Part shown: positions 15,401 through 33,400 of the stretch, in pieces
Layout of the letters: each line of letters starts with the position of its first letter
Position numbering within the stretch: the first letter of the stretch is position 1
NCBI RefSeq assembly: GCF_007197755.1
Contig: NZ_CP041636.1
Location: 3,694,001 to 3,758,000, forward strand
Direction of reading: 5' to 3'
From: Ferrovibrio terrae
Lineage (GTDB): Bacteria > Pseudomonadota > Alphaproteobacteria > Ferrovibrionales > Ferrovibrionaceae
Length of the DNA: 64,000 bases
Made by a program: the position numbers and the translations under genes
Notes under the pieces: generated by a model
Database searches by the model: none
What the model saw: only the letters and a program-made list of their open reading frames with translations
What the model was told of the DNA's origin: nothing

Positions 15401-15490
15401 GGACAGGTGGCCGAGTGGTTTAAGGCAGCGGTCTTGAAAACCGCCGTACCTTTACGGGTACCGTGAGTTCGAATCTCACCCTGTCCGCCA
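15401..15490 (+). tRNA. tRNA-Ser (anticodon UGA)
   Basis: Full class II tRNA. The acceptor stem GGACAGG (15401-15407) pairs with CCTGTCC (15480-15486), followed by discriminator G and encoded CCA. The anticodon arm GCGGT/ACCGC holds loop CTTGAAA with anticodon TGA. A long variable arm (GTACC-TTTAC-GGTAC) and a GTTCGAATC T-loop are present. The 3' end is used as the integration site of the element at 15476-26144, which restores the sequence exactly. Confidence 0.97.
15476..15490 (+). other. attL core of the integrated element
   Basis: The 15-bp sequence TCACCCTGTCCGCCA, the 3' end of tRNA-Ser, is repeated exactly at 26130-26144. The sequences beyond the repeats differ (AGGGTG here, TTCTGG at the other end), as expected for tyrosine-recombinase integration in a tRNA gene. 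Confidence 0.9.
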
Positions 15491-15899: not shown

Positions 15900-17672
15900 T
15901 CAGTCCAACATAACAAAGCTTGCACTGGTGAATTGACCAACGCCGCCAGCCCCGGCGATAACATCGCCGCCGCTGTCCTGACGCACCCAAATCTCGAAAT
16001 AGTCAGTTGTCGCAGTCACGGGCACTACCTCTGTGATTGATGCACCCTGTTCTGTTGCCGTGCCCCGCGCAGCTTCGCGCTCGCTTCGATAGATAGAGCC
16101 GTTTCTGTAAATCGCGATCCACAGCGGAGTTGCATCGACAATAGTGTCGTAACCGACCTTTGCAGTGATCATCGCCTCGCCGGTCCGGCCAGGCGTCCAG
16201 CGATAGTTTGTCGCCGCGTCGAATTTCCCGCCTTTGTCGAAAATCTCGGTGGCCAGCGCGAGCTTGGTCCAGGTGTTGTGCGCGATGGTCTGGTTGGAAG
16301 CTAACTCGACGTTTGCACGCGGCACAGGACCCGCATACATGCCGTAATTGTCTTTCGTCGTGCTGTCGTCAGTGACAGGCGTGGTGCAGGCGTTCTTCAG
16401 CATCTCGAAGCGGTTGTTTTCCGCTGATGCCCGAAGATGCACGCCGACCGTCGTCCCGCTCTGGGCCTCGATGAAGGCGCGAATCTTGTTGTCCTTGCCG
16501 TGGACCTCGATGGCCGTGTTGTCGGTCGCGTTCACGCCTGCGTCGATGAAGTTGGCATTCACGCGCCCGCCCGACGCTGTGCCGACCCGAAGGGAGACGC
16601 CGCCAGGCTGCTGATCGTGGATGCCGACAAGCTGCATGATGTTCTGCGTGATGTCGTGGCTGCCGTTTTCCAGCACCACGCCGTCGTCGCCATCGATGAC
16701 CTCAACCAACTTCCAGAAGCATCTACCAATGCCGCCATTGGTCGGTTTGAAGCGGACGCAGTCTGTCCCTTGAGAGCCGACCGTATGCAGATAGAAGGTA
16801 CTGTCGACAATAACCGTATTCACATCCAGCGGGACGTCATTGCGCGGCTCGAACAGAACCGCCGACCCGCTTCCGCCATACTGGATCTCGCCAGCAAAGT
16901 GGAAGTTGACCCCCATGCAGCTGTCGAAATGGAAGCCCGGATCAGACCCGACGCCAGGCGCGAAATAAACATCGACTCCGCCGAACCAGATGGTCTGGCC
17001 CTGCATCGGGGGCCAGTTGATGCCGGTCGTGCAACTGATCGTCGCCGGCATTGAGCCATCGCTGGTGCGGTGGCCGCCGCCGAAAACGAGAAGGTCGTAG
17101 CCGTATTCACAGGCGTAATCGATCGCCTCTTGCAGGCCGGCAGTCGTGCTGGCTGAAATGTCGATCTCGGCGCCGGTTTGATCGAAGACCGACCACACGC
17201 CGCTATTCGGGCCCCAGCGCATCGTCACGCAGGCTTGCTTGGCGGCCCCAAGATATGCAAGAGCGTCGTTTTCGGCGCCGGCTTGAGACAGCTTTGCAAT
17301 GATGCGGTTCTTCGCCGGCTTGACGAGTCTGATGGTCCACGCAGTTAAAGTGCCTGACCCATAAAAGATGTCCGATTGAATCACCAGGGCGCCAGTGCTG
17401 GCGCTGTAACTCGTAACTACGCCAGTCATGAACTTGCCGGATGGGTCGGCAGTTGCCTCAATCGTCACGGGCTGGCCGGCTGCCCAGTTTAAATCTACCT
17501 GGGTGGTCAGGCTCTTTGAGCCGGCACCGATGGCCAGACTAGTCGTGGAAGTGCTGGTGTATTCGGAAGCGCTTGCGTCAGTGGTCAGTGCTTCCAAATC
17601 AGTCAGATACGCACGGAAGGCGGCTTTATTGATCGGCATCCCAGTGGGAATGACCTCGGCGACAGTTGCCAT
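15900..17672 (-). CDS. Phage tail-spike/fibre-like protein with right-handed beta-helix
   Basis: A 590-aa phage-type protein. The N-terminus (about 1-110) is a Ser/Thr-rich particle-binding or adapter region, including SLAIGAGSKSLTTQ and repeated short beta segments seen in tail-fibre N-termini. Residues about 170-430 have a pectate-lyase-like parallel beta-helix pattern (AIDYACEYGYDLLVFGGG, then INWPPMQGQTIWFGG, repeated ENGSHDITQN and VEVHGKDNKIRAF-type rungs). The last 150 residues resemble a C-terminal beta-sandwich cap (NTWTKLALATEIFDKGG, GEAMITAKVGYD). Likely role is host-surface glycan binding or cleavage. It is the last gene of the element's leftward operon. Confidence 0.75.
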   Translation of the reverse strand: MATVAEVIPTGMPINKAAFRAYLTDLEALTTDASASEYTSTSTTSLAIGAGSKSLTTQVDLNWAAGQPVTIEATADPSGKFMTGVVTSYSASTGALVIQSDIFYGSGTLTAWTIRLVKPAKNRIIAKLSQAGAENDALAYLGAAKQACVTMRWGPNSGVWSVFDQTGAEIDISASTTAGLQEAIDYACEYGYDLLVFGGGHRTSDGSMPATISCTTGINWPPMQGQTIWFGGVDVYFAPGVGSDPGFHFDSCMGVNFHFAGEIQYGGSGSAVLFEPRNDVPLDVNTVIVDSTFYLHTVGSQGTDCVRFKPTNGGIGRCFWKLVEVIDGDDGVVLENGSHDITQNIMQLVGIHDQQPGGVSLRVGTASGGRVNANFIDAGVNATDNTAIEVHGKDNKIRAFIEAQSGTTVGVHLRASAENNRFEMLKNACTTPVTDDSTTKDNYGMYAGPVPRANVELASNQTIAHNTWTKLALATEIFDKGGKFDAATNYRWTPGRTGEAMITAKVGYDTIVDATPLWIAIYRNGSIYRSEREAARGTATEQGASITEVVPVTATTDYFEIWVRQDSGGDVIAGAGGVGQFTSASFVMLD

Positions 17673-17752
17673 TATTTCGGTCTCCTAGAGCGCAGTTGCG
17701 CTATCGCCAGTGCTGAAAGCGCTGGAGTTGTTTGAGGGATCAGTTAATTGAA

Positions 17753-17995
17753 TCAGTGAATTTGATTCGTTGCCGGCGGATGGCGGCGCGTAGCTAGGCG
17801 GCTTACGTGGGCTTCAAGCCGCCGTCGTGCTGCCTCGTCAACGTCGATGCGCCAGCGTTCACACGCCGCCTGAAATTCCGGCATGTCGAAAAATGAATCC
17901 CCAGCCCGTAGTTGCGACACGCATCGCTCAAGTGCTTCAAAGAAGGCAGCGCGGGATTTCTTAAGATCTTCTGTAATGGCATCGCCGGTGGTCAT
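17753..17995 (-). CDS. Small phage-type protein of unknown function
   Basis: An 80-aa charged helical protein, unrecognised. Its start overlaps the stop of the upstream gene by 1 nt (TAATG), which argues for real translation. It lies between the carbohydrate-binding-like protein and the spike gene and could be a chaperone or connector for the spike; nothing in the sequence shows this. Confidence 0.55.
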   Translation of the reverse strand: MTTGDAITEDLKKSRAAFFEALERCVSQLRAGDSFFDMPEFQAACERWRIDVDEAARRRLEAHVSRLATRRHPPATNQIH

Positions 17996-18387
17996 TAAGC
18001 GCCCGGCCTCCCATAGTCGCGGCCATCCTTGCCCTTCTTCACTGCGAGCCTAAAATCGGGCCCGGTGCCGGGCTGCTGCGAACTGCTATCGACCTGACAA
18101 ATCCATAGCGATCCACCGAGCGAAACCGTGTCGCCACGCTCGTAGCGCTCGCCTGGACGATAGAGTCCCTTATCGATGGGGATTGGTAGTTTCAGGTAAA
18201 CAACTTTGACGTTTGGGCCGCGTGTAAAGCGCAGCGTTAGCCTTCGCTCGCCGTCATAGTCGGCCTGAAGTTCTTCTTCCTCGATGGCTGCAATGCGCTT
18301 GTAAAGGGGCGCGATGGAATCAGCAATCAGGTCGACAATGCTCGGCATGATGCCCTTTATAAATGTGCCAATATCGGAGCGTTTCAT
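17995..18387 (-). CDS. Phage-type protein with carbohydrate-binding-like C-terminal module
   Basis: A 130-aa protein. Residues 1-40 are helical with a coiled-coil-like IAAIEEEELQADYDGERRL. From about residue 70 it shows a GLYRPGERYERGDTVSLGGSLW pattern like the short chitin-binding type 3 / carbohydrate-binding modules found in phage tail proteins, in which W and Y contact glycans. A GKDGRDYGRPGA tail ends it, resembling collagen-like phage linker ends. Overlaps neighbours on both sides (4 bp upstream, 1 nt downstream). Confidence 0.6.
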   Translation of the reverse strand: MKRSDIGTFIKGIMPSIVDLIADSIAPLYKRIAAIEEEELQADYDGERRLTLRFTRGPNVKVVYLKLPIPIDKGLYRPGERYERGDTVSLGGSLWICQVDSSSQQPGTGPDFRLAVKKGKDGRDYGRPGA

Positions 18388-18602
18388 GGCCGGCCCCCGC
18401 CTTTTTCCAGCGCCGCGCGTGTCTCGGACTCAATCCAATCAGCGGTGATGCCTTCATTGATGCCGGCACCTTCCAGCGCGGTGATGCGTGCCTCTAGCTC
18501 GTCAGCGCGAACGCGATGGGATTTCAGAGCTTCAAGTGTTTTATCCATGAGTGCGCGGAGCATGCGATCGACTTGGTCGGCGGTAAGATATTTTTCCGGC
18601 AT
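18384..18602 (-). CDS. Small phage-type protein of unknown function
   Basis: A 72-aa protein following the capsid gene by 4 bp and overlapping the next gene by 4 bp. It is helical with a heptad-like middle (LEALKSHRVRADELEARITALE), so a short coiled-coil oligomer is likely. No family recognised. Confidence 0.55.
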   Translation of the reverse strand: MPEKYLTADQVDRMLRALMDKTLEALKSHRVRADELEARITALEGAGINEGITADWIESETRAALEKGGGRP

Positions 18603-18606
18603 GTGC

Positions 18607-19722
18607 TTAGGCCGTGACCGACGTATAGGCAGCGCCGGTGATGTACTGGACGGCAGCGCTGCGGCGCTTCTTCCAGTTGATCACGCGCTCGGCTTTCAGG
18701 CCGATCAGGCCGCGCTGCCACAGGGACACCAGCACGGTCGAGTTGGTCGTCGGCTCGTCCGGCTCGCTGTCCATCTGCAGAGCCGCGACCCCGCTGCTGT
18801 CGAGGAACACCTGGCCGTCGTCGGCGATCATGATCTCGCTCGCTTTCGCGAGGATGATCAGGCCGCCGGCCTCGTAGGACTGCGGCGAGGCCGGGTCTTC
18901 CGTGGCAACCGCGCTTTCCGAGGTGATGACCGGCAGGCCGAACATGACACCGCCGGCAGCGGAGATACCGGGGAAGTCGTAACTCCCCCCGGTTCGCATC
19001 ATTGAAAACCGGATCGCTTGTTCCTCGGTCATGATCAGCACAGCGCCAGCCAGTGTCAGATTGGCGGCCAGGAACTGGGCGAAGAGAAATTCCAGATCGG
19101 CGCGAGCGTGATTAGCGGTGGTGCCGCTGGCTCGTCGCGGCGTGACGCCGTGGGTGATCGAGGCCGGGGAAACGTTCGACACTTCGGCAACCACCGGATC
19201 GACAAACTGCCGATCGACAAACTGCGCCATTGCCGCCAGCAAGTCCGACCGTACGAGAGCTTCCGCCGCCGGGCTGGAGAACAGCGCGAGTTCCTTAGTC
19301 AGGGCCACGATTCCGGCAGCTTTGGCCCAACGCAGCGCCACGGTATCGAGATCCATGGCACCGAACGGCGCCGCCCTGCCCTCTCCGACCCAGGCCATCG
19401 ATACCCCAGCCGACTGCCGCGGCACCGAAATATTGAACGGCACCGTTCGCAGGCCGGGAATGCGGCCAATGATTGTCATCGGCCGCAGTAGCTCGATGAA
19501 CTCGCCGGACATGGTGTTGTATTCGACCAGGGGCGCAGCCCAGGTCGCATCCGTCGTGGTGCCGGCGGAAATGGCGGACTTGAGCACGTTCCCCACTTCC
19601 GGGGTGCTGGCATCCCAGCGCTTGGCGAGAGCGGCGGCTTGCATTAGATCGCCCTTGGCAGCAGCAAGCGCCATGGCGTAGCGGGTGAAGGCCGTACCCT
19701 TCGGCAGATAGCTGTAGGTCAT
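18607..19722 (-). CDS. HK97-fold phage major capsid protein
   Basis: Major capsid protein of 371 aa. I chose the ATG at 19722 because AAAGGAAAATC precedes it. Family signs: SMAWVGEGRAAPFGAMDLDTV (E-loop/N-arm boundary block), PAAEALVRSDLLAAMAQFVDRQFVDP, MTEEQAIRFSMMRTG, GLPVITSE and the closing GLIGLKAERVINWKKRR block. The N-terminal 75 residues are helical and may act as a scaffolding delta-domain; no separate protease is present in the element. The gene heads a set of small genes and is preceded by a 7-bp hairpin at 19755-19771 without U-run. Confidence 0.9.
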   Translation of the reverse strand: MTYSYLPKGTAFTRYAMALAAAKGDLMQAAALAKRWDASTPEVGNVLKSAISAGTTTDATWAAPLVEYNTMSGEFIELLRPMTIIGRIPGLRTVPFNISVPRQSAGVSMAWVGEGRAAPFGAMDLDTVALRWAKAAGIVALTKELALFSSPAAEALVRSDLLAAMAQFVDRQFVDPVVAEVSNVSPASITHGVTPRRASGTTANHARADLEFLFAQFLAANLTLAGAVLIMTEEQAIRFSMMRTGGSYDFPGISAAGGVMFGLPVITSESAVATEDPASPQSYEAGGLIILAKASEIMIADDGQVFLDSSGVAALQMDSEPDEPTTNSTVLVSLWQRGLIGLKAERVINWKKRRSAAVQYITGAAYTSVTA

Positions 19723-19808: not shown

Positions 19809-20438
19809 TTAGGCTTCCGTCGTGGCGCGCATTGCCGCGCCTGCCTGAAGTTGAGCGGTAAGCTCCCCGACAAAGTCAGCCGCGAACTCATCGACCGAGT
19901 CATCGGTCAGGCGCGCAATCTTCAGCGCCTCATCGGCCCGCGCGAACGCGGCCTCTAAAACGGCAGCCACGTCGATTTGCACGAAAACCGACGCCGGCTC
20001 GATCTCTCGCCTTACCTGTTCGTAGAATTCAGGTGCCGACAAGTTCCGCCACTCTGAATAACTGCGTCGCAGCTCGACCCGCCGCAAACTGGGGGCACCC
20101 TCGATTTCGTGACTTACCTGCAGGCGATGATGGCGCCAGGCGGCAACGAGCTGGCCGCCGCGAGCATCTGCCTCACTCGGTGCCGGCCGTGTCGCGCGCA
20201 TGATGCCGGCAAGCGCCAGGCGGTTTGCATCTGAAACCGACGGGCCGGCTCCGGCAATTGCGGCGGTCAACGCGATGACGGCAACGTTGCGATAGCTGTG
20301 GCGCCAGTGTCCGCTATCAGGCGGACCATCCGGTAATTCCAGGCCGGCATCGATCCAATGCCGCAAGCTCTTGGCGGTTACGCCAGCCGCATAGGCAGCC
20401 ACCGCAAACCGCAGATTGGTGTCTGCCGGTTCGGTCAT
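19809..20438 (-). CDS. MerR-like HTH protein of the element
   Basis: A 209-aa protein. Residues 8-60 look like a MerR-type winged HTH (AAYAAGVTAKSLRHWIDAGLEL, then GHWRHSYRNVAVIALTAAI). The remaining 150 residues are helical and unrecognised. An AGGA ribosome site precedes the ATG at 20438. It sits between a terminator (after the small terminase) and the capsid gene, where phages normally carry large terminase, portal and protease genes. It could be a transcription regulator of the capsid module or a packaging/redirecting factor. Confidence 0.65.
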   Translation of the reverse strand: MTEPADTNLRFAVAAYAAGVTAKSLRHWIDAGLELPDGPPDSGHWRHSYRNVAVIALTAAIAGAGPSVSDANRLALAGIMRATRPAPSEADARGGQLVAAWRHHRLQVSHEIEGAPSLRRVELRRSYSEWRNLSAPEFYEQVRREIEPASVFVQIDVAAVLEAAFARADEALKIARLTDDSVDEFAADFVGELTAQLQAGAAMRATTEA

Positions 20439-20571: not shown

Positions 20572-20997
20572 TTACTCTGCAGTGCGCTCCGCTGGCCGCT
20601 GTCGATACGCGAGGAATGGATTTTCCTCCTTCGGTGCGGCCGGCAGATTCTGGCGTGACCGGGCACCGAACAGGCCGAACTGTTCCGCCATGCGCCGCGC
20701 CTCGGCCAAATGGGCGGCCGGCGGCACTTCGCCTGACTGCCAGCACAAATTGATGCAGCCCTGCAGATTGCAGAAGTTGCCGAAACTTGTGGTGTCGCGC
20801 CGGTCGGCAAGCCGGTTGAGGGACACCCTGCCGACTTCATCGATCCAGACGTCTTCGCCGGCAGCGGTCAACCATGCGGGCTTCGCCGGCAGGCCCTGTT
20901 GATCGATGAATCCTACCGGCGCAGGCTCGCGGCATGGCCGCAGCGTACCGCGAGCTTTTTTCTCTGCCGAATGCAGTGGTTTACGTCCACCCTTCAT
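20572..20997 (-). CDS. P27 family phage terminase small subunit
   Basis: A 141-aa DNA-packaging recognition subunit candidate. The pattern matches P27 terminases: basic MKGGRKP start, then a P-x-P linker and helix-turn-helix-like LTAAGEDVWIDEVGRVSLNRLADRRDTTSFGNFCNLQGCINLCW, and a Pro-rich C-terminus with FGLFGARSRQNLP. I took the ATG at 20997 rather than an upstream TTG. It follows an HNH gene, a typical HK97-like packaging pair, but the large terminase that should come next is missing. Confidence 0.78.
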   Translation of the reverse strand: MKGGRKPLHSAEKKARGTLRPCREPAPVGFIDQQGLPAKPAWLTAAGEDVWIDEVGRVSLNRLADRRDTTSFGNFCNLQGCINLCWQSGEVPPAAHLAEARRMAEQFGLFGARSRQNLPAAPKEENPFLAYRQRPAERTAE

Positions 20998-21110
20998 GGT
21001 CTGCAAATCTCATCTGGTCTGGAAGTTTGAAGTGGATAAGCAACAATTTGACCGACCACACGGCAATTGGGGCATGCGACTCAGACATAATCGCTCCCCC
21101 CCCCGGTGGT

Positions 21111-21507: not shown

Positions 21508-22032
21508 CTAATCGGAGGGAGCCAGCACATTCAGCGCTGCCACAGCAAGCCCAGCCGCATATGGTGCGGTTGCCCAAGGTGCAATGCGGCGGGCAGTCTC
21601 GCGCTGGCTGTGTCCGGCGCCTACTAGATACCAGAGGGCAATGCCGGGCTGGCTACTGGCACCGCCGACCGTCTGTAAACATTCCCATACGAAATCCTTG
21701 GCGCGCTGGATACGTTCGCTTGTGTTACTGGCCTTGCCGCCAGGCAGCCGGCCTAGATCGGCAGCGCGTAGCGGGTCGAGGTGCGCGAGGTCAAATTCAT
21801 TGCGAAAACGCTTGGCAATGGCGAGTTGTGCCGCCGTAATCTGGCCTTTGTTAAACATGATATCCAGGTCGCCGATGACAACCTCAGCAGTTCGCGCCTC
21901 GTTGCGCGTAGTGCCAGGCACCAGCTCGTAGATGACCGCAGTCGTCGTCGCATGCTTCGCGCGATGCTCCGGCGTCCGCTGCTCTGGCGCGCAGTAAACC
22001 GCTGGTTTCGAGCGGCGGCGATGGCTGGGCAT
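21508..22032 (-). CDS. Element protein of unknown function
   Basis: A 174-aa protein from the ATG at 22032, which follows a GGTGGAGA site. The N-terminus is basic (MPSHRRRSKP). The C-terminal half contains an HTH-like segment (ALWYLVGAGHSQRETARRI), so DNA binding is possible. No family is recognised. Its stop is 13 bp before the HNH start, in one operon. Confidence 0.65.
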   Translation of the reverse strand: MPSHRRRSKPAVYCAPEQRTPEHRAKHATTTAVIYELVPGTTRNEARTAEVVIGDLDIMFNKGQITAAQLAIAKRFRNEFDLAHLDPLRAADLGRLPGGKASNTSERIQRAKDFVWECLQTVGGASSQPGIALWYLVGAGHSQRETARRIAPWATAPYAAGLAVAALNVLAPSD

Positions 22033-22122
22033 GGGGGGATCTCCACCATTTTTAGAGGCAACTTCCACGGACCGGGGGTTGGGTTGCGCGCGTGTGGCGT
22101 CAGTTAAAAATCCCAGGATTTT

Positions 22123-22371
22123 CTATTTCAGCCGTCGCGCTTGCCGTGCGACGTCAATCGAGGCATCGGCATCGCCTGTTGCCGGCGGTTCGGGGTTGCC
22201 GATCAAGGCCTCGACTCGCGCTACCTCGACTGCAGCGATGCGCCAGATTTTCGCCCCCAGTTTGAAGGCCTTCAGCTCGCCGCGTGCGATCATGCCGCGC
22301 ACGTGGCGCGGTGACACACCCCAGCGCTTTGCGAGCTGTTCCGGGCTTAGTGGGGCATCTGTCGAAGTCAT
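22123..22371 (-). CDS. Excisionase/MerR-type small HTH protein
   Basis: An 82-aa protein from the ATG at 22371, which overlaps the upstream stop by 4 bp. Residues 8-55 show a single-domain winged HTH of the excisionase type (LSPEQLAKRWGVSPRHVRGMIARG, then FKLGAKIWRI). A role in excision, or regulating the element, is likely. The longer reading frame reaching 22554 is rejected because of the overlap-coupled start. Confidence 0.8.
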   Translation of the reverse strand: MTSTDAPLSPEQLAKRWGVSPRHVRGMIARGELKAFKLGAKIWRIAAVEVARVEALIGNPEPPATGDADASIDVARQARRLK

Positions 22372-22880
22372 GCGAGTCCGGCCTCCTGCATTGCCCGTGC
22401 GCGAGCTGCGATGCTTTCGGCGCTGGGGGGCAGCCGTGGGCCTGCTGTGATCGCCGGCGGCTGCAGCAGCCGCTGCAGGCGCTGATATTCTTTGCGTAGC
22501 CGCAGCGCTTCCGCGTCGAGCGCGGGCTTCAGCTCGGCGAAAGCCGGGAACCACTGAAACGCACCGGCGACGCGCGCCAAACTGTTTTTCGTGAAAACGC
22601 CGGCTGGCTGCTCGATCAGCGCGACATAGGCCGCGACGCGGCGCTCAGCCTCATCTAGCGGCATGCGGCCGGCACACAGCGCCCCGAGTGAGATTAGCCA
22701 TTTGCGGACGGCTGCCGGCTCCGCTGGTGCCAGGCGTGCAGGGAAGTCAGCCAGGATCGCCCGCGCCTGTGCAAGCATTGCCGGCGATGGCGCGGTGGGT
22801 TGCAACCAATTCCCGGCGGTGTCCTCCATGTGCAGAGCCTGGAAGAGTGCCTGCGAACCTTGGATAGCGACCTGATTCAT
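22368..22880 (-). CDS. Element protein of unknown function
   Basis: A 170-aa helical protein, coupled to both neighbours by 4-bp overlaps. The C-terminal region has a coiled-coil-like ALRLRKEYQRLQRLLQPP segment. It follows the replication-like protein, so a replication accessory role is possible, but no family signature is visible. Confidence 0.6.
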   Translation of the reverse strand: MNQVAIQGSQALFQALHMEDTAGNWLQPTAPSPAMLAQARAILADFPARLAPAEPAAVRKWLISLGALCAGRMPLDEAERRVAAYVALIEQPAGVFTKNSLARVAGAFQWFPAFAELKPALDAEALRLRKEYQRLQRLLQPPAITAGPRLPPSAESIAARARAMQEAGLA

Positions 22881-23644
22881 TGGAATTCGCGCTCCATCAT
22901 TTGGTGGAAGCCACTGCCGCCGCGCTGCCCTGCGGCGCGGTCGTAGCCGCCTTCCATCAGCTTTGTGAAGGACTCCGGCTGCAATAGAAAATCGAAGCTC
23001 GCTCGCCAGCCATCCTTGTTGCTGCCCAGCATCCAGCGGTTAGCCCTGACTTTGCCGAGGGCGATCCGCCAACCCTCCAACCCGCCGGCTTCCGCTATTC
23101 GCTTCCGCAACTTTGCGCGGCGGCTGTCCGTCAGTTTCTGAACTCGCGCTAAGGACTGTTCATCTGCGAGCTGATTCCATGCGGCAACGGCAGCATCTAA
23201 ATCTGCGTTACCTTCATTTCCTGTATTTCCTTCTTTCTTCTTTGTCCCGGTGCTGTCCCGGTGCTGTCCCGCTGGCGTCTCGGGTGCTGTCTCGGGTGCT
23301 GTCTCGCCTTCCGAACGCGCAGTCTGCATTTCATCGTAATTGCATATGGTTATGATGAGTTGCCCTGTCTCGGTTCGTGTCCTGATAAGTGTCTCGGTTT
23401 TTAATCGGCCGATGAATCGCTCAACAACACCCTTTCCCCAGCCGAACCGCTCCGCCATGAACCTTATCGAATGCGAAAGCTCGCCGCGCTGCAGCTCGAC
23501 AGTCTTGCCAGCAATGCTGATCCGCGTCGGCCTCCAGCGAGCCTCTTCGATCAGCCAAGCCCATGCCTGGGCGCGGCTAAAAGCCTCGCCGCGCCATGCT
23601 GGGTGGTCTTGCCAGCCGCGCTGCATCAGGAAGTAGCCCGCCAC
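22877..23644 (-). CDS. Phage replication-like DNA-binding protein
   Basis: A 255-aa protein whose first 110 residues resemble the winged-helix N-terminal domain of phage replication proteins (FSRAQAWAWLIEEARWRP, then LQRGELSHSIRFMAERFGWGKGVVERFIGRL, then TICNYDEMQ). A Glu/Thr-rich linker near 115-145 leads to a helical C-terminal domain. It starts with GTG at 23644; an ATG at 23626 is a credible alternative. No primase or helicase motifs are visible, so it probably recruits host or helper replication factors. Confidence 0.7.
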   Translation of the reverse strand: MAGYFLMQRGWQDHPAWRGEAFSRAQAWAWLIEEARWRPTRISIAGKTVELQRGELSHSIRFMAERFGWGKGVVERFIGRLKTETLIRTRTETGQLIITICNYDEMQTARSEGETAPETAPETPAGQHRDSTGTKKKEGNTGNEGNADLDAAVAAWNQLADEQSLARVQKLTDSRRAKLRKRIAEAGGLEGWRIALGKVRANRWMLGSNKDGWRASFDFLLQPESFTKLMEGGYDRAAGQRGGSGFHQMMEREFQ

Positions 23645-23652
23645 TGTGGCGC

Positions 23653-23856
23653 TTACTGCTGACCGCCTGCGCTGGGCTTCAATCGCGGCAGCGCATCCAG
23701 CCAGGCGCGCAAATCGTCCGCGAGAACGATGGTGCGGAAGCCGTCTTTGCGGGCGATCAGCGCGCCGCTTTCGATGTGGCGATAGAGTTGACGCCGGCTG
23801 CGGCCGGAAAGCTGGGCTGCTTTGTCGAGACTGTACGCGAGTGGCTGATCTAACAT
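23653..23856 (-). CDS. AlpA-like HTH regulator
   Basis: A 67-aa protein from the ATG at 23856, which has GGAG upstream. It is a single MerR/AlpA-type HTH: YSLDKAAQLSGRSRRQLYRHIESG, then DGFRTIVLADDLRAWL. Such proteins control excision and early transcription in P4-like satellites. The 250-bp gap upstream (23857-24119) likely holds its promoter and operators. Confidence 0.8.
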   Translation of the reverse strand: MLDQPLAYSLDKAAQLSGRSRRQLYRHIESGALIARKDGFRTIVLADDLRAWLDALPRLKPSAGGQQ

Positions 23857-24081
23857 TGCGTGTCGCTCCATATTATGTCGCGCCGTGACGCGCTTGATTC
23901 ATCCATAGACCAAATTCCACAACTAACCACTATCGGCCCCCTAGAATGCAGCCGATCTGTTTCTAGGAATTGATCAAGCGGGGTATGAACAACAATATAT
24001 TGTAAGGCTTGGGAAATCGGAGTTGTCCGCGTCGTCCAAAAAGCGCAGCAGCAGAGTTATCCCTGGTTATGCAACGAGAAA

Positions 24082-24119: not shown

Positions 24120-24644
24120 TCAGGCTGCCTCGTCAGACGCGCTCATGCGTGTGACGTTGTCGTGCCAGCTGGCGAACGTGTCGCCGCGGCTGCGGCTGCT
24201 TCCGTAAACGAGCTGCGCGATCTCAAGGGCATGGTAGGTCATGCCCTTGCATTCTTCGGGCGAGGGTTCGACTTCTTCGGTGCCGAACAGCGCGCCATAG
24301 GCATGGGCGCGCGCCACAACGTCTCGCGGACAGGTGGCCGAGGCATCGACCACGAATTGCTCTAGTCCCAGTTTCACCCGATTAATCGGAGGGTCTTCCT
24401 CGCCCTGAAATATCGCCATCCACTCCACGATGGCCGCGCGAAGCATCCAGGCCTCGGTAATGGTCATGTCGGACCAAGATTCGGCAATCATGGCGCGGAT
24501 TGGCGCCTCAGTTTCCTGATAGGACGCCTTCGTTCCGCAGGCCTTTACGATCTCGCCTGCAGATGCATTCAGGGCGCGAATAGCCCCTAAAAAATGCCGG
24601 ATTGTCTGTAAGCCGGTCGTCGGCTTATGTTCCTGCTCAGCCAT
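24120..24644 (-). CDS. Element protein of unknown function
   Basis: A 174-aa acidic helical protein with a strong GGAGG ribosome site. Unrecognised. It lies next to the integrase, apart from the other element genes, flanked by a weak terminator. Such positions in satellites often hold host-benefit or interference genes, but nothing in the sequence shows such a role. Confidence 0.6.
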   Translation of the reverse strand: MAEQEHKPTTGLQTIRHFLGAIRALNASAGEIVKACGTKASYQETEAPIRAMIAESWSDMTITEAWMLRAAIVEWMAIFQGEEDPPINRVKLGLEQFVVDASATCPRDVVARAHAYGALFGTEEVEPSPEECKGMTYHALEIAQLVYGSSRSRGDTFASWHDNVTRMSASDEAA

Positions 24645-24738: not shown

Positions 24739-25986
24739 CTATCTGCGCTGTCTCGCGCCGATCTGAATAACCTTCCCGCCCTTCGCCTTCGAGGCATCGA
24801 TGAATTTCGCCCAGGCATCCATCAGCTGCCGCCGGCGGTCAAACAAGTCGGTGCGGCGGTATGCGGCCTCAACCTTGTCGGGGATAGCGTGCGCGAGGGC
24901 TTGTTCTGCCACTTCGCGCGCAAAATTCGTCTGCTCGGCTGCCCAGATTCGGAAGCAAGACCGGAAGCCGTGAACCGTCAAATCATCGCGGCCCATTCGC
25001 TTCAGCAGCATCAGCATGCTCATATTGGAAAGCGGCGCCTTGGCCGCCCGGCCGCGGAACAGATAGCCCTTGCGATCCGCTTCCGGCGTTTGCCGCAGGA
25101 TCTCGACCGCGCGGGCGCACAGAGGGACGCGGTGCTCCTTTCCGGCCTTGATCTTTTCGGGCGGTACGATCCAGACGGCGGCCTTAAGGTCGATCTCAGC
25201 CCAGACCGCGCCGAGTGCCTCCCCGGTGCGAGCTGCCGTCATAATGGTGAATTCCAGCGCGCGGGCGGCCTCCCCATCCTGTGCCCGCAGCTTCGCCACG
25301 AAAGCGCCGATATCAGCATAGGGCAATGCGGCGTGGTGCTGAGTGCGCTTTACGCGGCCTCGGGCGGGCAGCAAGTTCTGCAAGTGGCCTTGCCACCGGG
25401 CGGGGTTTTCTCCGCTTCGCAAGCCGCGAGCTGTGGCCCAGTCCAGCACCGCCGCAATGCGGCCACGCAGGCGACTGGCTGTCACGGTCTTTTTGGCCCA
25501 TAGGGGCTCAAGCGCGTTGATAACCATAGCCGTGTCGATCGACGCGACTTGGACCTTGCCGAACCGGGGATAGGCATACAGCCGCAGGGTCGCATCCCAT
25601 TGCTTGGCGTGTTTGGCTGACCGCCAGCCGGCGGCATGGGCCGCGACGTACCGGCTGGCCGCCTCTTCAAACGTCATCGCCTTGGCGTTCTGCGCTGCAT
25701 TGGCGGCCCTCTCAGCGCGGGCGGCGCCGATGGGGTCAATCCCCTGCCGCTTCAGCCGCTGCAGCCGCAGCGCCTCCGCTCGGGCCTCTGCCAGCGAAAC
25801 CACCGGCCAGGGCCCTAGTCCCATATCGCGGGGCGTGGTGCGGCCTGCCATTCGATATCGGAAGATCCAGGAGCGTGTTTCGGCGTCGGTGACGCGCAAG
25901 TAAAGCCCCCAGCCATCGGCATGGAAGCCGGGCGGCTTCTTGCCGATCCCTACTGCGCTCAACCGCTCTTTCTTCCGGGTGCCCAT
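24739..25986 (-). CDS. int: P4-type tyrosine recombinase (integrase)
   Basis: Site-specific recombinase of 415 aa that integrates and excises the element at tRNA-Ser. Residues 1-95 are the arm-binding domain of the P4 group (DUF4102: KKPPGFHADGWGLYLRV, WIFRYRMAGR, MGLGPWPVVSLAEAR). A core-binding domain lies at about 100-205. The catalytic set is complete: R253, K283, H339 with R342 (HGFR), H366 and Y376. It lies beside attR, which is usual. Confidence 0.95.
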   Translation of the reverse strand: MGTRKKERLSAVGIGKKPPGFHADGWGLYLRVTDAETRSWIFRYRMAGRTTPRDMGLGPWPVVSLAEARAEALRLQRLKRQGIDPIGAARAERAANAAQNAKAMTFEEAASRYVAAHAAGWRSAKHAKQWDATLRLYAYPRFGKVQVASIDTAMVINALEPLWAKKTVTASRLRGRIAAVLDWATARGLRSGENPARWQGHLQNLLPARGRVKRTQHHAALPYADIGAFVAKLRAQDGEAARALEFTIMTAARTGEALGAVWAEIDLKAAVWIVPPEKIKAGKEHRVPLCARAVEILRQTPEADRKGYLFRGRAAKAPLSNMSMLMLLKRMGRDDLTVHGFRSCFRIWAAEQTNFAREVAEQALAHAIPDKVEAAYRRTDLFDRRRQLMDAWAKFIDASKAKGGKVIQIGARQRR

Positions 25987-26129
25987 AATTCAGCCCATCT
26001 TTTTAATGTGACATACTGTGGCACGGCACGCCGGGAAGTCAACGGAGATTGAGCTAGACCCTCTCCAATTGCGGCGATTCTAGCGGTGTTGCGTCACGGG
26101 CTGGCACGTCTAGGCACAGAGTTAGATTG

Positions 26130-26144
26130 TCACCCTGTCCGCCA
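26130..26144 (+). other. attR core of the integrated element
   Basis: Exact second copy of the 15-bp tRNA-Ser 3' end (TCACCCTGTCCGCCA). The rest of the tRNA is absent here, showing that this is the displaced chromosomal junction. The host flank resumes with TTCTGGCAATTGC. Confidence 0.9.
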
Positions 26145-26215: not shown

Positions 26216-27082
26216 TCAGCCGGCCGCCGGCGCGGCGGCCTGCCCGGTCAGACCGGTCATGTAGGTCGGCGCCATCTTCTCACCGGTACGGCGATCGTGT
26301 TCCAGCAGGATATGCAGAACCAGATCGTAGGACTGGTAGCAGTCGTGCAGAATCGCGGCCATTGCCAGCAGCTGGCGCGGGCTGAGGCGCGACAGCCTGG
26401 TGAAGTTGCGCACATAGACCGCATCGGCCCAGACCGTCTGGCTGAGACCGGCGTAAATGTCCTGCTGCACCAGCATCGGCACGATGGTGCGGCTGACGGT
26501 CGGGAAGAAGCGATGGAAGGCGTAGCCCTGGCTGCGCAGGAACACATCGACGTCGCCGAACAGCGGCTGGTCGACATAGAGCGGCAGGAACTCCACCTCG
26601 GTCTGGATCACCAGCGCATCCGCAAGCCGCTTGGTGGCGTTCTGGAACACCATCAGTTCGGCGCCCTGAATGTCGATTTTAACGAAGTCGATGCCTTCGG
26701 TTTCCGGAATATCGTCCAGACGCGTGGTCTCGACCTCTATTTTCGACACCACCTGGCCCCAGTTCGGGAAGCCATGAAACAGATTGAGCACTTCGGTATT
26801 CGGCGTCAGCAGCGACGTCATGCCGGACGAGGCGCACAAATTCAGGGTATGCCGTTTGCCATCGCCGATCGCGTTCGGCAGATAGGTCTCGTTCGGACCC
26901 TTCATTCCGTTCAGCTTGGCCAACGCATCGGTATTCGGCTCGAAGCCGATGATGTCGGCGTGACCGCCACGCAGCAGAGTGTTGTATTGCGGGACGGCGT
27001 CGAGCGGGTTCGCCCCGATATCGACGATCTTCACCCTTACCGACGAGCTTGTAAGCGCGTGAAATGAACCGGGAATGGCCAT
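26216..27082 (-). CDS. FkbM family SAM-dependent methyltransferase
   Basis: A 288-aa methyltransferase of the FkbM family, which often O-methylates sugars on glycoproteins, O-antigen or capsule. SAM motif I is VDIGANP (20-26), followed by GFEPN and the family block KIDIQGAELMVFQNA. The C-terminal 90 residues are an unusual helical extension. AGGA precedes the ATG. It is the last gene before the terminator, downstream of the giant proteins and the GT41 enzyme, consistent with methylation of the sugar that the transferase attaches. Confidence 0.9.
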   Translation of the reverse strand: MAIPGSFHALTSSSVRVKIVDIGANPLDAVPQYNTLLRGGHADIIGFEPNTDALAKLNGMKGPNETYLPNAIGDGKRHTLNLCASSGMTSLLTPNTEVLNLFHGFPNWGQVVSKIEVETTRLDDIPETEGIDFVKIDIQGAELMVFQNATKRLADALVIQTEVEFLPLYVDQPLFGDVDVFLRSQGYAFHRFFPTVSRTIVPMLVQQDIYAGLSQTVWADAVYVRNFTRLSRLSPRQLLAMAAILHDCYQSYDLVLHILLEHDRRTGEKMAPTYMTGLTGQAAAPAAG

Positions 27083-27427: not shown

Positions 27428-30400
27428 TCAGCCAATCGCCAGAAGCCAGGCTTCGATCTGTTCATCGCCGAACAACTCGACCTGGGCCTGCGTCAGTGCA
27501 TTGGCTTGGGTCGTGGTCATCGAGGAAATCGACGTCGTGGTCAGGCCAACAATGGCGGTCAACGAAATGGCCGCCAGCTGGGTGGTCGACAACTCGTCGA
27601 TATCGATTTCCTCGAGGGCGCCAACCTGGGTCAAGGTCAGACCGGTCATCTGCGCCGCGGTCAGAACGCCAACCTGGGCCGCGTCCAATCCGTTGAAGGC
27701 GGTTTCCGTCAACGCGCCAATCTGGGACGCTGAGAGGCCGGCCAGCGCCGTGGTGCTGAGCGCCACCGTCTGCGTGCTGTCGAGGGCGCCAAGCTGCGTC
27801 GTGGTCAGCGCTTTGACCTGCGCCGAGGTCAGTACGCCCAGCCGATCCGTATCGAGTGCGTTCAGGCTGGTGGTGGTGAGCGCCGCAATCTGCGTGGCCA
27901 GCAGGCCGCCCACCGCAGTACTGGTCAGCGCCTCGACCTGGGTGCTTTCCAGGGTGCCGATCTGCGTGGCGGTCAGGCCCCTCGCCTGCGTCAGGCTCAG
28001 AACACCGAACTGATCCGCTGTCAGCGCGTCAAGCTGCGTCGTGGTCAGCGCACCGATTTGCTGCGACGTCAGGCCGGCCACGCGCGTGGTGTCCAGCTGA
28101 GCCAGATTGGTGGTGCTCAGGGCCGCCGCCTGTGTCGTGCTCAGCGAACCAAGCTGGGTCGAGCTCAGTTCGTTGAAATCCTCCGGATCAAGCTGGTTGA
28201 TCTGCGTCGTGGTCAGACCGCGCAATTGGATAGCGGTCAAGGCCTGCGCCTGAGTGGTATCGAGGTGCTTGAGGTTGGTACTGCTCAGGGTCTGCAGTTG
28301 CGTCGCCGTCAGCGATTTGATCTGTGTCGAGCTCAGCTCCGCAATGTCAGTCTCTTCCAGCCCCTCGATCTGTGTCGTGGTCAGGGCCGCGATCTGACTC
28401 CCCAGCAATGCCTGGGTCTGCGTCTCGTCCAGGGCGTTGAAGGCCGTGGTCGTCAACGAGCCGATCTGCGCAGCGGTCAGGCCAGCCAGCGCCGAAGTGC
28501 TGAGCGCGGTGATCTGCGTGGACAAGGCACCGAGCTGCGTTGTAGTCAGCCCCTTCACCTGCGTCGCAGTCAGGGCGCCAAATACAGCCGTATCAAGATT
28601 TTCAATCTGCGTGGTGGTCAGGCCGCTGAGCTGGGTGGCTGCCAGATTGGCGATCGTCGTGGTGCTGAGTTCCGAGAACTGCTCGGTAGACAGCGAACCG
28701 ATCTGCGTCGAGGTCAGGCCCTTGATCTGGGTCGAAGTCAGCGCCGCAAAGACCGTCGTATTCAGTTCATCGATTTGGGTCGTCGTTAGCGCGCCGATCT
28801 GCGTCGAAACGAGGGCCGCAATGCGGGTTTCATCAAGGTCTGGCAGGAGGGTGGTGCTCAGGCCCTTGATCTGGGTGGTGGTCAGGGTGCCGAACTGCGT
28901 CGCTGTCAGTTCATTCAGATCGGCCGCCAACAAGCCGTTCAGCTGCGTGGTGGTCAACGCCCTGAGCTGGGCGCTGCTGAGCGCCTGGAACTGGGTTTCG
29001 TCGAGTTGCGACAGGTTTTCGGTCGACAGAGACTTGATCTGCGTCACCGTCACCGCCTTGAGCTGGGTTACGGTCAGATCGGCGACATCTTCGGAACGCA
29101 AGCCAGCGATCTGCGTCGTGGTCAGGCCGGCAATCTGAACTGTGGTCAGCGCGCGGGTCTGGGCGGTATCAAGCTCGTTAAGCGCTTCCGTGCTCAACGC
29201 CGCGATCTGGGTCGCAGCCAGGCCGGACAGGGTCGTGGTGCTCAGCGCCGTGATCTGCGTGCTGTCGAGCGACCCGAATTGCGTGGTGGTCAGCCCCTTG
29301 ATCTGTGTGGCCGTCAGCGCGGTGAATGCCGTGGTGCTGAGGGCGCCCAGCTGTGTCGTGGTGAGAGCGCCAAGCTGCAGCGCCGTCAAACCGCCGACCT
29401 GTGTGGTGGTCAGTTCGGCAATGGCGGTCTCGTTGATGGCCTTGACCTGCAGGGTGGTCAGACCTGCAAGCTGGGTCGAGGTCAGATCCAGCAGATCGGT
29501 GCTTTCAAGTCCGGCAATCTGCGTGGTGGTCAACGCCTTGAGCTGCAATGCACTCAGAGCCTGGAACTGGGTGGTGTCGAGCGCTTCCAGATCTTCCTGC
29601 TCCAGCGCCGCAACCTGCGATGCCGTCAAAGCCTTGATCTGCGTCAGGCTCAGTTCACCGATATCGGTGGTGGTCAGTTCCGCAACCTGCGTGGTCGCCA
29701 GACCGGCAATCTGTGCGGCGCTCAGCGCCGACGTTTGTGTGGTGTTGAGTTCAGACAGATTGGTCGACGTCAATGCGCGCAACTGCAACGTGGTCAGCGA
29801 CTTGATCTGCGTTGTCGTGAGATCGGCAACATCGAGTGAATCAAGCGACGCGATCTGCGTCGTGGTCAGGGCTGCAATCTGCGTCCCCGCCAGGGACTTT
29901 GCCTGGGTCGAACTCAGTGCGTTCAGCGTCGATGTTGCCAGGGCTTTGATCTGCGCCGCCGTCAGGCCGGCCAGAGCAGCGGTGCTCAGCCCCTCAACCT
30001 GCGTATCCTTCAACGCGGCCACTTGCGTGGTCGTCAGCCCCTTGATCTGCGTCGATGTGAATGCGGCAAAAACAGTCGAATCGAGAGTGTCGAGCTGTGT
30101 CGAGGTCAGGCCGCCGATCTGCAGAGCGGTCAGGTTGGCAATAGCGGTCGAACTCAGAGCGCTGAACTGGTCATTGTCCAACGAACCGATCTGCGTCGAC
30201 GTCAAGCCCTTGGTCTGCGTCGACGTCAGGGCCGCGAAGACCTCGCTGGTAATCGCGTCAAGCTGCCCGGTGGTGAGCGCGCCGATCTGGGTCGCGGCCA
30301 GGGCCCCAACCTGGGTTTCGGTCAGGTTTTCTATGGCACCATCGGTAAAGGCGCGAATCTGCGTCGTGTTCAGGCTGCCGAACTGCGTGGACGTCAGTTC

Positions 30401-33400
30401 ACCAAGGTCTTCGCTGCTGAGCCCGCTGATCTGCGTCGTCGTCAGGGCCTGCACCTGCGCCGTGGTCAGCGCCTGCGCCTGGGTCTCGGTCAGAGCCGCG
30501 AGATTTTCGCTGGTTAGCGACTTGAGCTGCGTCGCGGTCAGCGCCTTGATCTGGGTCGTGCTCAGCTCGGCGATATCTTCCTCAGCCAGAGCATTGATCT
30601 GCGTCGTGGTCAGGCCGGCGATCTGCGATGCCGTCAGGGACTGCATCCGCGTGGTGTCGAGACTGTTCAGCGCAGTCGAGGTCAACGCACCGAGCTGAGA
30701 ACCGGTCAGGCCGGAAATCGCTGTGCCGCTCAGCAGTGCAATCTGGGTATCTTCCAGCGATGCGATCTGGGTGGTGGTCAGCCCCTTCACCTGCGTGACG
30801 TTCAACGCACCGAGCAGGGTTTCGTTCGCGCTATCAAGCTGCGTAGTGGTCAGCGCTGCGATTTGAAGTGCCGTAAGACCACCAACCTGTGCTGACGTCA
30901 GAGTCTCAAGGACCGCTGCATCAATGCTGCTGATCTGCGCTGTTGACAGGGCGCCGATCTGCGTCGACGTCAGTTCCTCCAGATCGGAGGCCGCGAAATT
31001 CGCTATCTGCGTCGTGGTCAACGCCTTGAGCTGTGCCGCCGTGAGCGCCTGAGCCTGCGTCTCGCTCAGCGCGGAGATGCTCTCGCTGGTGAGGCCTTTA
31101 AGCTGCGTCGCCGTCAGCGACTTGATCTGCGTCACCGTCAGATCGGCAATTGAATCCACGTCGAGCGCATTGATCTGCGTCGTGGTCAAGGCGGCGATCT
31201 GGGTGGCGAGCAATGCTTTGCTCTGCGTCGTATCCAGAGCGATCAGCGCCTCTGTGCTGAGGGCCGCAATCTGCGACGAAACCAGGCCCGTGAGTGCGGT
31301 CCCTGTCAGGGCCTTGACCTGGTCTTCCAGCAAGGCGCCGACCTGGGTGGTCGTCAGTCCCCTGATCTGGGTCGAGGTCAGGACGCCCAGCGCTTCCGTG
31401 CTGAGTGCGCCAATCAGCGTGCTGCTCAGGCTGCCGATCTGGGCAGACGTCAGACCGCCGATCGCAGTCGTGGTCAGTCCGCTGAACTGGGTTTCATCCA
31501 GCGACGCAATCTGCGTCGTGGTCAGGGCCTTCACCTGCGTCGTGCTCAACTCGGCAATGACCGTCGATGTCAGAGCGTCAAGTTGGGTGGTGCCAAGAGC
31601 GCTGATCTGGCTGGCAGCCAGCGCTTTTACCTGGGATGTGGTAAGGAAGCCGATAACAGTGTCGCTGAGACCCTTGATCTGCGTGACCGACAGGGCCGCG
31701 ACCTGACTGGTGCTGAGTTCCGCAACGTCCGCATCAATCAGATCGTTCAGCTGCGTCGTGGTCAGCGCCTGAATCTGCTGATTGCTCAACGCCTGGACCT
31801 GCGTGGTTTCGAGAGCCGCCAGGCCATCACTATTCAGCGATTTGATCTGCGTGGCTGTCAGCGCCTTGAGCTGCGTCGTCGTCAGATCGGCAACATCCGT
31901 CGTTTCCAGCGACGAAATCTGGGTCGTGGTCAGGGCTGCGATCTGCGTGGCAGCCAGCGCTTTGCTCTGCGTCGTATCCAGAGCAATCAGCGCCGTGGTG
32001 CTCAGGGCGGCAATCTGTGTGCCCGCAAGGCCGGTGAGCGCGGAGCTGCTGAACGCGGAAACCTGGGTCGATTCGAGCGCCTTGATCTGCGTCGTGGTAA
32101 GCCCCTTGATCTGCGTCGAGGTCAGAGCGCTCACGGTGGCGGTATCAAGAGAATTGAGCTGTGTCGAGGTCAGACCACCGATCTGCGAAGCGGTCAGGCC
32201 GCCAATCGTGGTTGTGGTCAGCAGGGCAAACTGTTCGTCGCTAAGCGCACCAAGCTGAGCCGCCGTCAGCCCCTTGATCTGGGTGGCCGTCAGCGCCGAG
32301 AAGGCGTCGTCATCCAGTGATGCGATCTGCGTCGTTGTCAGCGCGCCGATCTGCGCGACCGCCAGAGCCTGAACCTGCGTCGTCTCGAGTTCATTCAGAG
32401 TCGTGGTGGTCAGGCCCTTGATCTGGGTGGTCGACAGGCCCTTGATCTGCGTCTCACTCAGCTCGCGCAGGTCGTCTGATGTCAGGGTGTTCAATTGCGT
32501 CGTGGTCAGAGCCTGCAACTGCAGCGTGGTAAGTGCCTGGGCCTGGGTGGTATCCAGCGCCGACAGATTCGTATCCGTCAGCGCCTTGATCTGCGTAACA
32601 GACAGGGCCTTGATCTGTGTCGTGGTCAGATCCGCTACATCCGCAGTATCCAGCGCTGCGATCTGCGTGGTCGTCAGCGCCGCGATCTGCGTGGCGCCAA
32701 GCGCCTTGCTTTGTGTCGTATCCAGCGCATTCAGTGCCTCTGTGCTCAGAGCTTTGATCTGGGCAACAGTGAAGCCCGCAAGCGCCGCGGTGCTCAGAAC
32801 CCCCACCTGGCTGCTGGTCAACGCACCGACCTGCGTGGTCGTGAATCCCCTGATCTGCGTCGCGGAGAGCGCGCCCAGAGCATCGGTGCTCAGGGCATCA
32901 ATCAACGTTGCGGTCAGGCCGGAAATCTGGGCGGACGTGAGGCCGGAAATGGCCGCAGTGCTGATCGCACCAAACTGCGTGGTCTCCAGAGAACCGATCT
33001 GCGTTGAGGTCAGCCCCTTCACCTGGGTGGAGGTCAGTTCAGCGAAAACAGCGTCGCTCAGCCCATCAATCTGGGTCGTGGTGAGGCTGGCGATCTGCGT
33101 GGCGGTCAACGCCTGCCGCTGAGCGCTGCTCAGGCCATCAATATTGGTATTGCTGAGGTTCGCAATCTGCGTAGTACTGAGGCCGGCTATCTGCGTCGTA
33201 TTGAAGTCGGCAAATTCGACGGCAGCAAGATCATTCAGCTGGGTTGTGGTCAGCCCCTGGAGCTGCGCCGTCGACAGCACCTGAATCTGCGTCGAGGTCA
33301 ACGTCGCCAGATTATCGCTGCTCAGAGCCCGCAACTGCGTGGTGGTGAAGCTCTTCAGCTGTGTGACGGTCAGTTCTGCCACATCCGCGGAGTCCAGCGC

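Follow-up and report, generated by a model that had tools for sequence, protein, structure and literature searches.

A capsid-carrying island at a tRNA-Ser gene of Ferrovibrio terrae and its candidate spike for a borrowed phage tail

Phage satellites are generally taken to inherit the tail of their helper, and hence the host range of their helper. What, then, is the role of a fibre-like spike gene in an integrated element that has a major capsid gene and no tail genes? The locus that raises this question lies at positions 15,900 to 18,602 of a 64,000-nucleotide stretch of Ferrovibrio terrae DNA (assembly GCF_007197755.1, contig NZ_CP041636.1, positions 3,694,001 to 3,758,000), which we call the window and to which all unlabelled coordinates refer. 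Four minus-strand open reading frames (ORFs) follow the capsid gene here, and among them, as an initial annotation made from the sequence had stated, are the genes for a 590-aa spike and for a small protein with a module like a carbohydrate-binding module (CBM). That annotation suggested that a satellite could place its own receptor-binding protein on the tail of a helper. We find this to be the best single account of the spike, with a probability of roughly 45%, because the N-terminal domain of the spike is of a tail-fibre type and three sister islands encode a further component of tails, the tape measure, behind their capsid.

An island with a capsid and no tail genes

The island measures ∼10.65 kb between two attachment (att) copies and is integrated in a tRNA-Ser gene, the 3′ end of which is one of the copies. 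No match between the copies at the observed level (23/26) occurred in 20 shuffled windows, and a search of both strands of the window showed no further copy that reaches 20 identities. The sister genome G001 has the empty site: a query made of the tRNA and the right flank aligned there unbroken over positions 1-133 of 142, at 94%. The same query gave some match in 17 of 19 genomes, those besides G001 being essentially to the tRNA alone. All genes between the att copies are on the minus strand and start with a tyrosine integrase. The features are as follows.

15401-15490, plus: tRNA-Ser (TGA), the integration target (ARAGORN); the first att copy is formed by its last 26 bases, 15465-15490
15900-17672, minus: 590-aa spike; a helix and a tail-fibre-like N-terminal domain (∼38-120), a middle, and a C1q/TNF-like C-terminus (∼445-590)
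17753-17995, minus: 80-aa protein, no convincing family match
17995-18387, minus: 130-aa protein, coiled coil and CBM5/12-like module; C-terminus matches phrog_1289 (E 9.6e-18)
18384-18602, minus: 72-aa probable coiled coil, judged from sequence
18607-19722, minus: HK97-fold major capsid protein lacking both the protease and the delta domain (phrog_617, E 1.1e-77)
19809-20438, minus: 209-aa MerR-like helix-turn-helix (HTH) protein, weak Pfam and PHROGs matches
20572-21006, minus: TerS-like protein (phrog_83, weak at E 0.0076); 32% match to a protein whose gene immediately precedes TerL in phage contig L118
21111-21530, minus: HNH endonuclease (phrog_2323, E 4.7e-22)
21508-22068, minus: 186-aa DUF6456-like protein, weak match
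22123-22554, minus: HTH_17 protein, start unsure, frame overlapping the next gene
22368-22880, minus: 170-aa protein (ORF)
22877-23644, minus: replication protein, O-like/DnaD-like (phrog_345, E 1.7e-25)
23653-23871, minus: AlpA/excisionase-like HTH_17 protein (profile match)
24120-24644, minus: 174-aa protein (ORF)
24739-25986, minus: tyrosine integrase (Pfam and PHROGs family match)
26119-26144, plus: second att copy, 23/26 identical to the tRNA 3′ end, with a 15-bp exact core

The capsid and integrase cover nearly the full length of their families. For the capsid, the start at 19722, with AAAGGA as a sequence like a ribosome-binding site, was preferred over 19773; a similar motif, AGGAG, lies upstream of the spike ORF, which is open at full length, and this speaks against the nonfunctional remnant that the initial annotation had held up as a refutation. 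The same annotation was correct in seeing no tail genes. Searches of the island with Pfam and PHROGs, and with tblastn using D3-like and further HK97-like phage queries, detected neither TerL, portal or protease nor a connector or any gene for a tail, and gave no match to a tape-measure protein (TMP); TAC had no search of its own. Apart from the integrase, capsid, replication and spike genes, the longest minus-strand frame encodes 209 aa, which leaves no longer unassigned frame that could hold a TerL, portal, protease or tail gene. The element is therefore small and integrated and has an integrase, a regulator and a replication gene without a full virion set, as phage satellites in general do, and it is very probably a satellite-type island.

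Plasmid searches gave no match to the island, and those made with the spike matched its C-terminal domain only. A 32.1-kb IMG/VR record (IMGVR_UViG_2910031632_000002) starts at the spike stop codon, and its provirus borders disagree with the att sites. An FkbM-type methyltransferase gene (26216-27082) adjoins the right att site, and two giant minus-strand ORFs lie past the island, at 27428-35998 (2856 aa, made up of LTTTQ-type repeats) and 38236-46407 (2723 aa).

The spike, the CBM-like protein and the head module

We searched residues 1-158 of the spike in 143 related genomes, of which 17 gave E ≤ 0.1, the best non-self value being 2.2e-6. The closest fibre, at 38% across spike residues 38-120, is that of a prophage carried by a member of the same bacterial family, and two of the fibres with a matching domain come from one genome of that family; the same genus gave three weak matches, none better than E 0.008 and two of them interrupted by stops. 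The domain at ∼38-120 recurs near the N-terminus of fibre-like proteins at L228, L229, L230, L231, L232 and L233. In five of the seven stretches that were opened (L228, L229, L231, L232 and L233) the matching protein is a fibre encoded behind one or two genes that are similar by eye, and in four of these five a gene for 875-1965 aa, tape-measure-like by size and place only, lies further upstream; L230 has two fibre-like proteins outside any evident tail module. Both of the proteins scanned, those of L228 and L229, match PHROG tail fibre families, and L228 lies ∼18 kb from a TerL on the same contig that is 55% identical to the TerL of phage X2_26. It had been proposed that an N-terminus matching head-decoration proteins only would tell against a tail position; what we found is a domain of ∼80 aa near the N-terminus of proteins in tail-fibre positions.

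The C-terminal ∼130 aa of the spike are C1q/TNF-like according to Foldseek on a predicted model, which is usable for the C-terminus only. Stretches similar to this region, always at <60% identity, occur in proteins of 16 phage records, of which seven are annotated as tail or tail fibre, one as C1q-like and eight as hypothetical. From sequence, the spike has a C-terminal domain of receptor-binding type, and binding is predicted. Iterated search over fetched ORFs returned the same set of proteins for the N-terminus, together with L234, and returned L003, L004 and the doubtful L081 for the C-terminus. For the middle (∼120-440) this search and profiles gave no family or sequence relative, and no model of it was usable. 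The 590-aa spike of the initial annotation is present as an open frame, and the beta-helix given to it was not confirmed; judged from sequence, a central beta-helix is plausible. The FliD-like match of the N-terminus (L234), a match of the spike to FAD_binding_4, and PARP and antibody matches in a PDB sequence search were set aside as chance.

The 130-aa protein was initially described as having a chitin-binding-like module, a description that holds for its predicted fold and falls short in its sequence profile. An AlphaFold model built from 44 sequences has a confidence (pLDDT) of 83 overall and >90 across most of the module, and Foldseek placed it, at probability 1.00, with a contractile injection system base plate protein, chitinase chitin-binding domains and a cyanophage tail fibre, although the best E was 0.011 and none reached 0.001; the score against Pfam CBM_5_12 was 16 bits, below the 26.2-bit cut-off. 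The last ∼90 residues match phrog_1289, for which ‘portal protein’ is the family name, and also match proteins whose genes come next after that of the portal in PAJU2, X2_26, SOVA965 and JLK-2012. The open frame of the D3-like homologues runs to 167-739 aa (median 329, 91 loci), and the island form is therefore short. By sequence comparison, the CBM-like protein is separate from the spike and corresponds, in shortened form, to the D3-like protein whose gene adjoins that of the portal; we infer that it is a head or neck fibre.

This neighbour, and the position of the spike gene just after the capsid, favour a second explanation, in which the spike decorates the capsid or neck of the satellite's own particle, perhaps with the CBM-like protein, and aids adhesion to host or helper, for which the available text on MiniFlayer provides a precedent in its fibres (PMC10690885). 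In X2_26, SOVA965 and L041 the interval from capsid to portal holds hydrolase-, fibre- or lectin-like genes, and because fibre-like genes thus occur in the head module of some D3-like phages a capsid spike retains some probability. An origin of the spike from a head-slot gene of a D3-like phage was rejected: among 124 loci with capsid and portal, 19 of which have gaps >900 bp, nothing was alike by eye, the genes that fill these gaps being mostly transferase-like by eye. The N-terminal domain, moreover, turned up in proteins that occupy tail-fibre positions. We consider a spike on the capsid or neck unlikely, though it is the best placed of the alternatives to a tail-borne spike. The capsid-portal intervals of two D3-like phage loci (L149:4713-9512 and L073:11203-17182) hold long runs of sugar- or methyl-transferase-like genes, again judged by eye.

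Sister islands and the history of the capsid

Fourteen islands, including that of the window, carry a capsid with no TerL or portal detected, the other 13 being L023, L069, L075, L201, L202, L203, L205, L206, L262, L263, L264, L265 and L293. All have an integrase except L202, which is a 9.9-kb contig. As a control, the screen was applied to L294-L296, phage loci with only distantly related capsids: TerL and portal were recovered in all three, and protease in two of them (L294 and L296). The first screen can miss or meet partial phages, as at L207, which has a protease and capsid and gave no TerL or portal with D3-like queries alone; further queries were therefore used in a later screen, and L207 was not counted. 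Ten longer unassigned proteins (from L023, L201-L203, L205, L206, L263, L264 and L293) fall in helicase, primase, regulator or unknown families, and none is a TerL or portal. Also uncounted are L266 and L267, where the capsid matches in part and neither TerL nor portal was found, and L007 and L297 (portal beside the capsid). The weakest of the counted islands are L201, with a delta-like region and another gene order, and L265, with a very divergent capsid and transposase-like genes nearby. Counts for viral contigs refer to the matches listed and the best 80 loci, and rare islands among them may be missed.

Three of the 14 islands have a tape-measure gene after the capsid: L075:11435-14562 (split over two frames), L202:5811-8300 and L205:10585-12882. 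The L205 tape measure is 94% identical to that of vB_KppS-Ant (LR881103); matches to its gene in E. coli come from 58 records, and both of those opened are ordinary siphoprophages. Homologues of the 130-aa protein occur in six islands (the window, L069, L201, L202, L203 and L264). A TerS-like gene is clear in L264 and weak in L262, while HNH is present in L265 and as a 29% match in L069. A scan of four sister-island proteins identified defence genes downstream of the capsid in two islands: a ShosA homologue (L262:6609-7367, E 9.5e-67) with a 217-aa gene beside it, and a PDC-S47 match (L069:13095-13769).

The defence genes lend some support to a further reading, that the spike is unrelated cargo or serves interference with other phages, through receptor competition or poisoned tail assembly, outside the transfer particle; that the spike is the last gene before the att site is consistent with this. 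The domain make-up of the spike is that of a fibre, however, and the tape-measure proteins that three sister islands encode after the capsid are parts of a tail, and we regard cargo or interference as quite improbable.

The relatives of the window capsid are the D3-like siphophage capsids of X2_26, PAJU2 and JLK-2012 (44% identity), with identity rising to 61% against D3-like capsids of viral contigs, among the matches listed. In X2_26, PAJU2 and JLK-2012 a protease and a delta-type region precede the capsid within one fused protein; the alignment shows both to be missing from the window capsid, including any cleavable N-terminal delta domain of the Ccm type. Two of 54 genome loci from the capsid alignment lack TerL, portal and protease (L069, Rhizobacter sp. 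Root404, and L075, Pseudomonas entomophila WZ006). Among the best 80 viral loci the sole one is L078, the contig of this same genome, and 32 further viral loci among the matches listed include none lacking all three.

We built a capsid tree from 13 island capsids and 65 phage capsids, L293 having been found later and left out. The island label changes five times on this tree, at least four of them across starred branches; three changes are left without the two weakest islands, L201 and L265, and two if L205 is omitted too, and such counts cannot separate gain from loss. The tree program flags long branches (L205, L206, L265 and others). Most simply, and judging from the tree, the islands took up their capsids in separate captures. 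The window capsid groups with six viral-contig phage capsids (99/94, starred), and this position beside phage capsids indicates that the entry of the capsid is young. It would also suit a D3-like prophage that has decayed by loss of TerL, portal, protease and tail, with the spike left over. In the same direction, the genome has no match to the PF04860 portal (4 of 14 control genomes were positive, and other portal families lay outside the search), and L201, which keeps a delta-like region, may itself be a remnant. Against decay, the capsid and integrase match their families over nearly the whole length, there are an att pair and an empty site, and the protease and delta region have been removed from the capsid as a clean cut, a capsid frame of just 314-380 aa being likewise present in 12 of the 13 other islands. 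Furthermore, nine of the island capsids cluster together, on long branches (83/97, not starred), and islands of this kind therefore seem to last. We consider decay the least probable of the explanations weighed here.

The proposed particle and its relation to known satellites

In the explanation that we favour, the element would be a satellite of a D3-like tailed phage that integrates at tRNA-Ser and would replicate by its own initiator. Its HNH- and TerS-type genes could steer helper packaging towards mobilisation of the island, and its capsid, with the portal, protease and terminase of the helper, may form or reshape the head, by analogy with the SaPIbov5 protein Ccm. The helper would supply the tail of this chimeric particle, on which the spike would most likely take the fibre position through its tail-fibre-like N-terminal region, and the particle would then bind a receptor chosen by the satellite. 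This whole chain, in which a satellite builds its head from a captured capsid gene and places its own spike on the helper tail so that the satellite sets the host range, is put forward tentatively, with somewhat less confidence than the tail position of the spike alone.

Besides the head-module genes of X2_26, SOVA965 and L041, several results weigh against a tail-borne spike. Residues 1-35, the likeliest anchor, are not common to the fibres, with which the alignment shares only ∼38-120, and the ∼80-aa domain that they have in common may be a module that moves among fibres and not the anchor. The spike model has a mean pLDDT of 44, with 27-55 in blocks of the middle, and a scan of IMG/VR for close relatives found the N-terminus solely in this genome's own contig. 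The spike is unmatched in all 13 other islands. Among the 143 related genomes a capsid relative occurs besides G000 in G005 only, at 28%, and the 130-aa protein in G000 only. A helper with a matching adapter, which the initial annotation had proposed to look for, was not found, the same-family prophage fibre being the closest protein. A resident helper with a PF04860 portal was rejected because the genome has no such match, and the genome also lacks a match to the X2_26 TerL (present in 4 of 31 genomes), other TerL families lying outside this genome-wide search.

Phage-inducible chromosomal islands (PICIs) carry an integrase and an AlpA-type regulator, as this island does. Capsid-forming PICIs (cf-PICIs), as defined in the available text of PMC10690885, share with it an HNH gene, clear in the island, their own major capsid protein and a presumed helper tail; they differ in having their own TerL, portal, protease and connectors, none of which the island screen detected, and in TerS, for which the island match is weak. 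MiniFlayer, a Streptomyces satellite, resembles the island in having capsid genes and its own tail fibre, but it has a full packaging set, short fibres that bind the neck of the helper, and no lysogeny module, according to the same text. The phage record vB_KppS-Ant (‘induced prophage’, 16.5 kb) has an integrase, primase, capsid and TMP with little other tail annotation; it differs from the islands in having TerS, TerL, portal and connector, and in our reading resembles a cf-PICI that encodes a tape measure itself.

In SaPIbov5, a cos-type SaPI, Ccm is likewise a satellite-encoded homologue of the HK97-like capsid protein of the helper; the available text of PMC8569155 describes how it takes the pentamers and turns a prolate helper capsid into a small isometric one, and how a procapsid preparation contained helper portal and tail proteins. 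Ccm (40.4 kDa) is, however, cleaved like the helper protein, to 30.4 kDa (PMC8569155), whereas the island capsid lacks a delta domain. The island further differs in its D3-like proteobacterial capsid and its encoded spike, and no helper was found for it. For tail parts encoded by a satellite the likeness is to the phage-inducible chromosomal island-like elements (PLEs) of V. cholerae with TMP, TAC and BhuB: in the available text of PMC12987554, PLEs build their own TMP into chimeric tails and are presented as the first family of satellites known to change how tails are assembled, and tmp genes occur in unrelated satellites. The likeness is one of gene kind: the island has a spike and not a TMP, together with its own capsid homologue. 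The available text of a review of satellite families (PMC11389934) does not mention tail fibres, receptor binding or tape measures, and our literature search, to which most subscription papers, including the original cf-PICI paper, were out of reach, found no satellite-encoded receptor-binding spike for a helper tail.

If the favoured explanation is correct, the spike would uncouple the host range of the satellite from that of its helper and would widen gene transfer, and, taken with the tape-measure islands, it would define the capsid-only islands as a class that adapts borrowed tails to its own use. The 14 islands suggest that D3-like capsids have been captured repeatedly, with neither portal nor TerL; capsid redirection through a homologue of the capsid protein thereby becomes testable in bacteria other than Staphylococcus.

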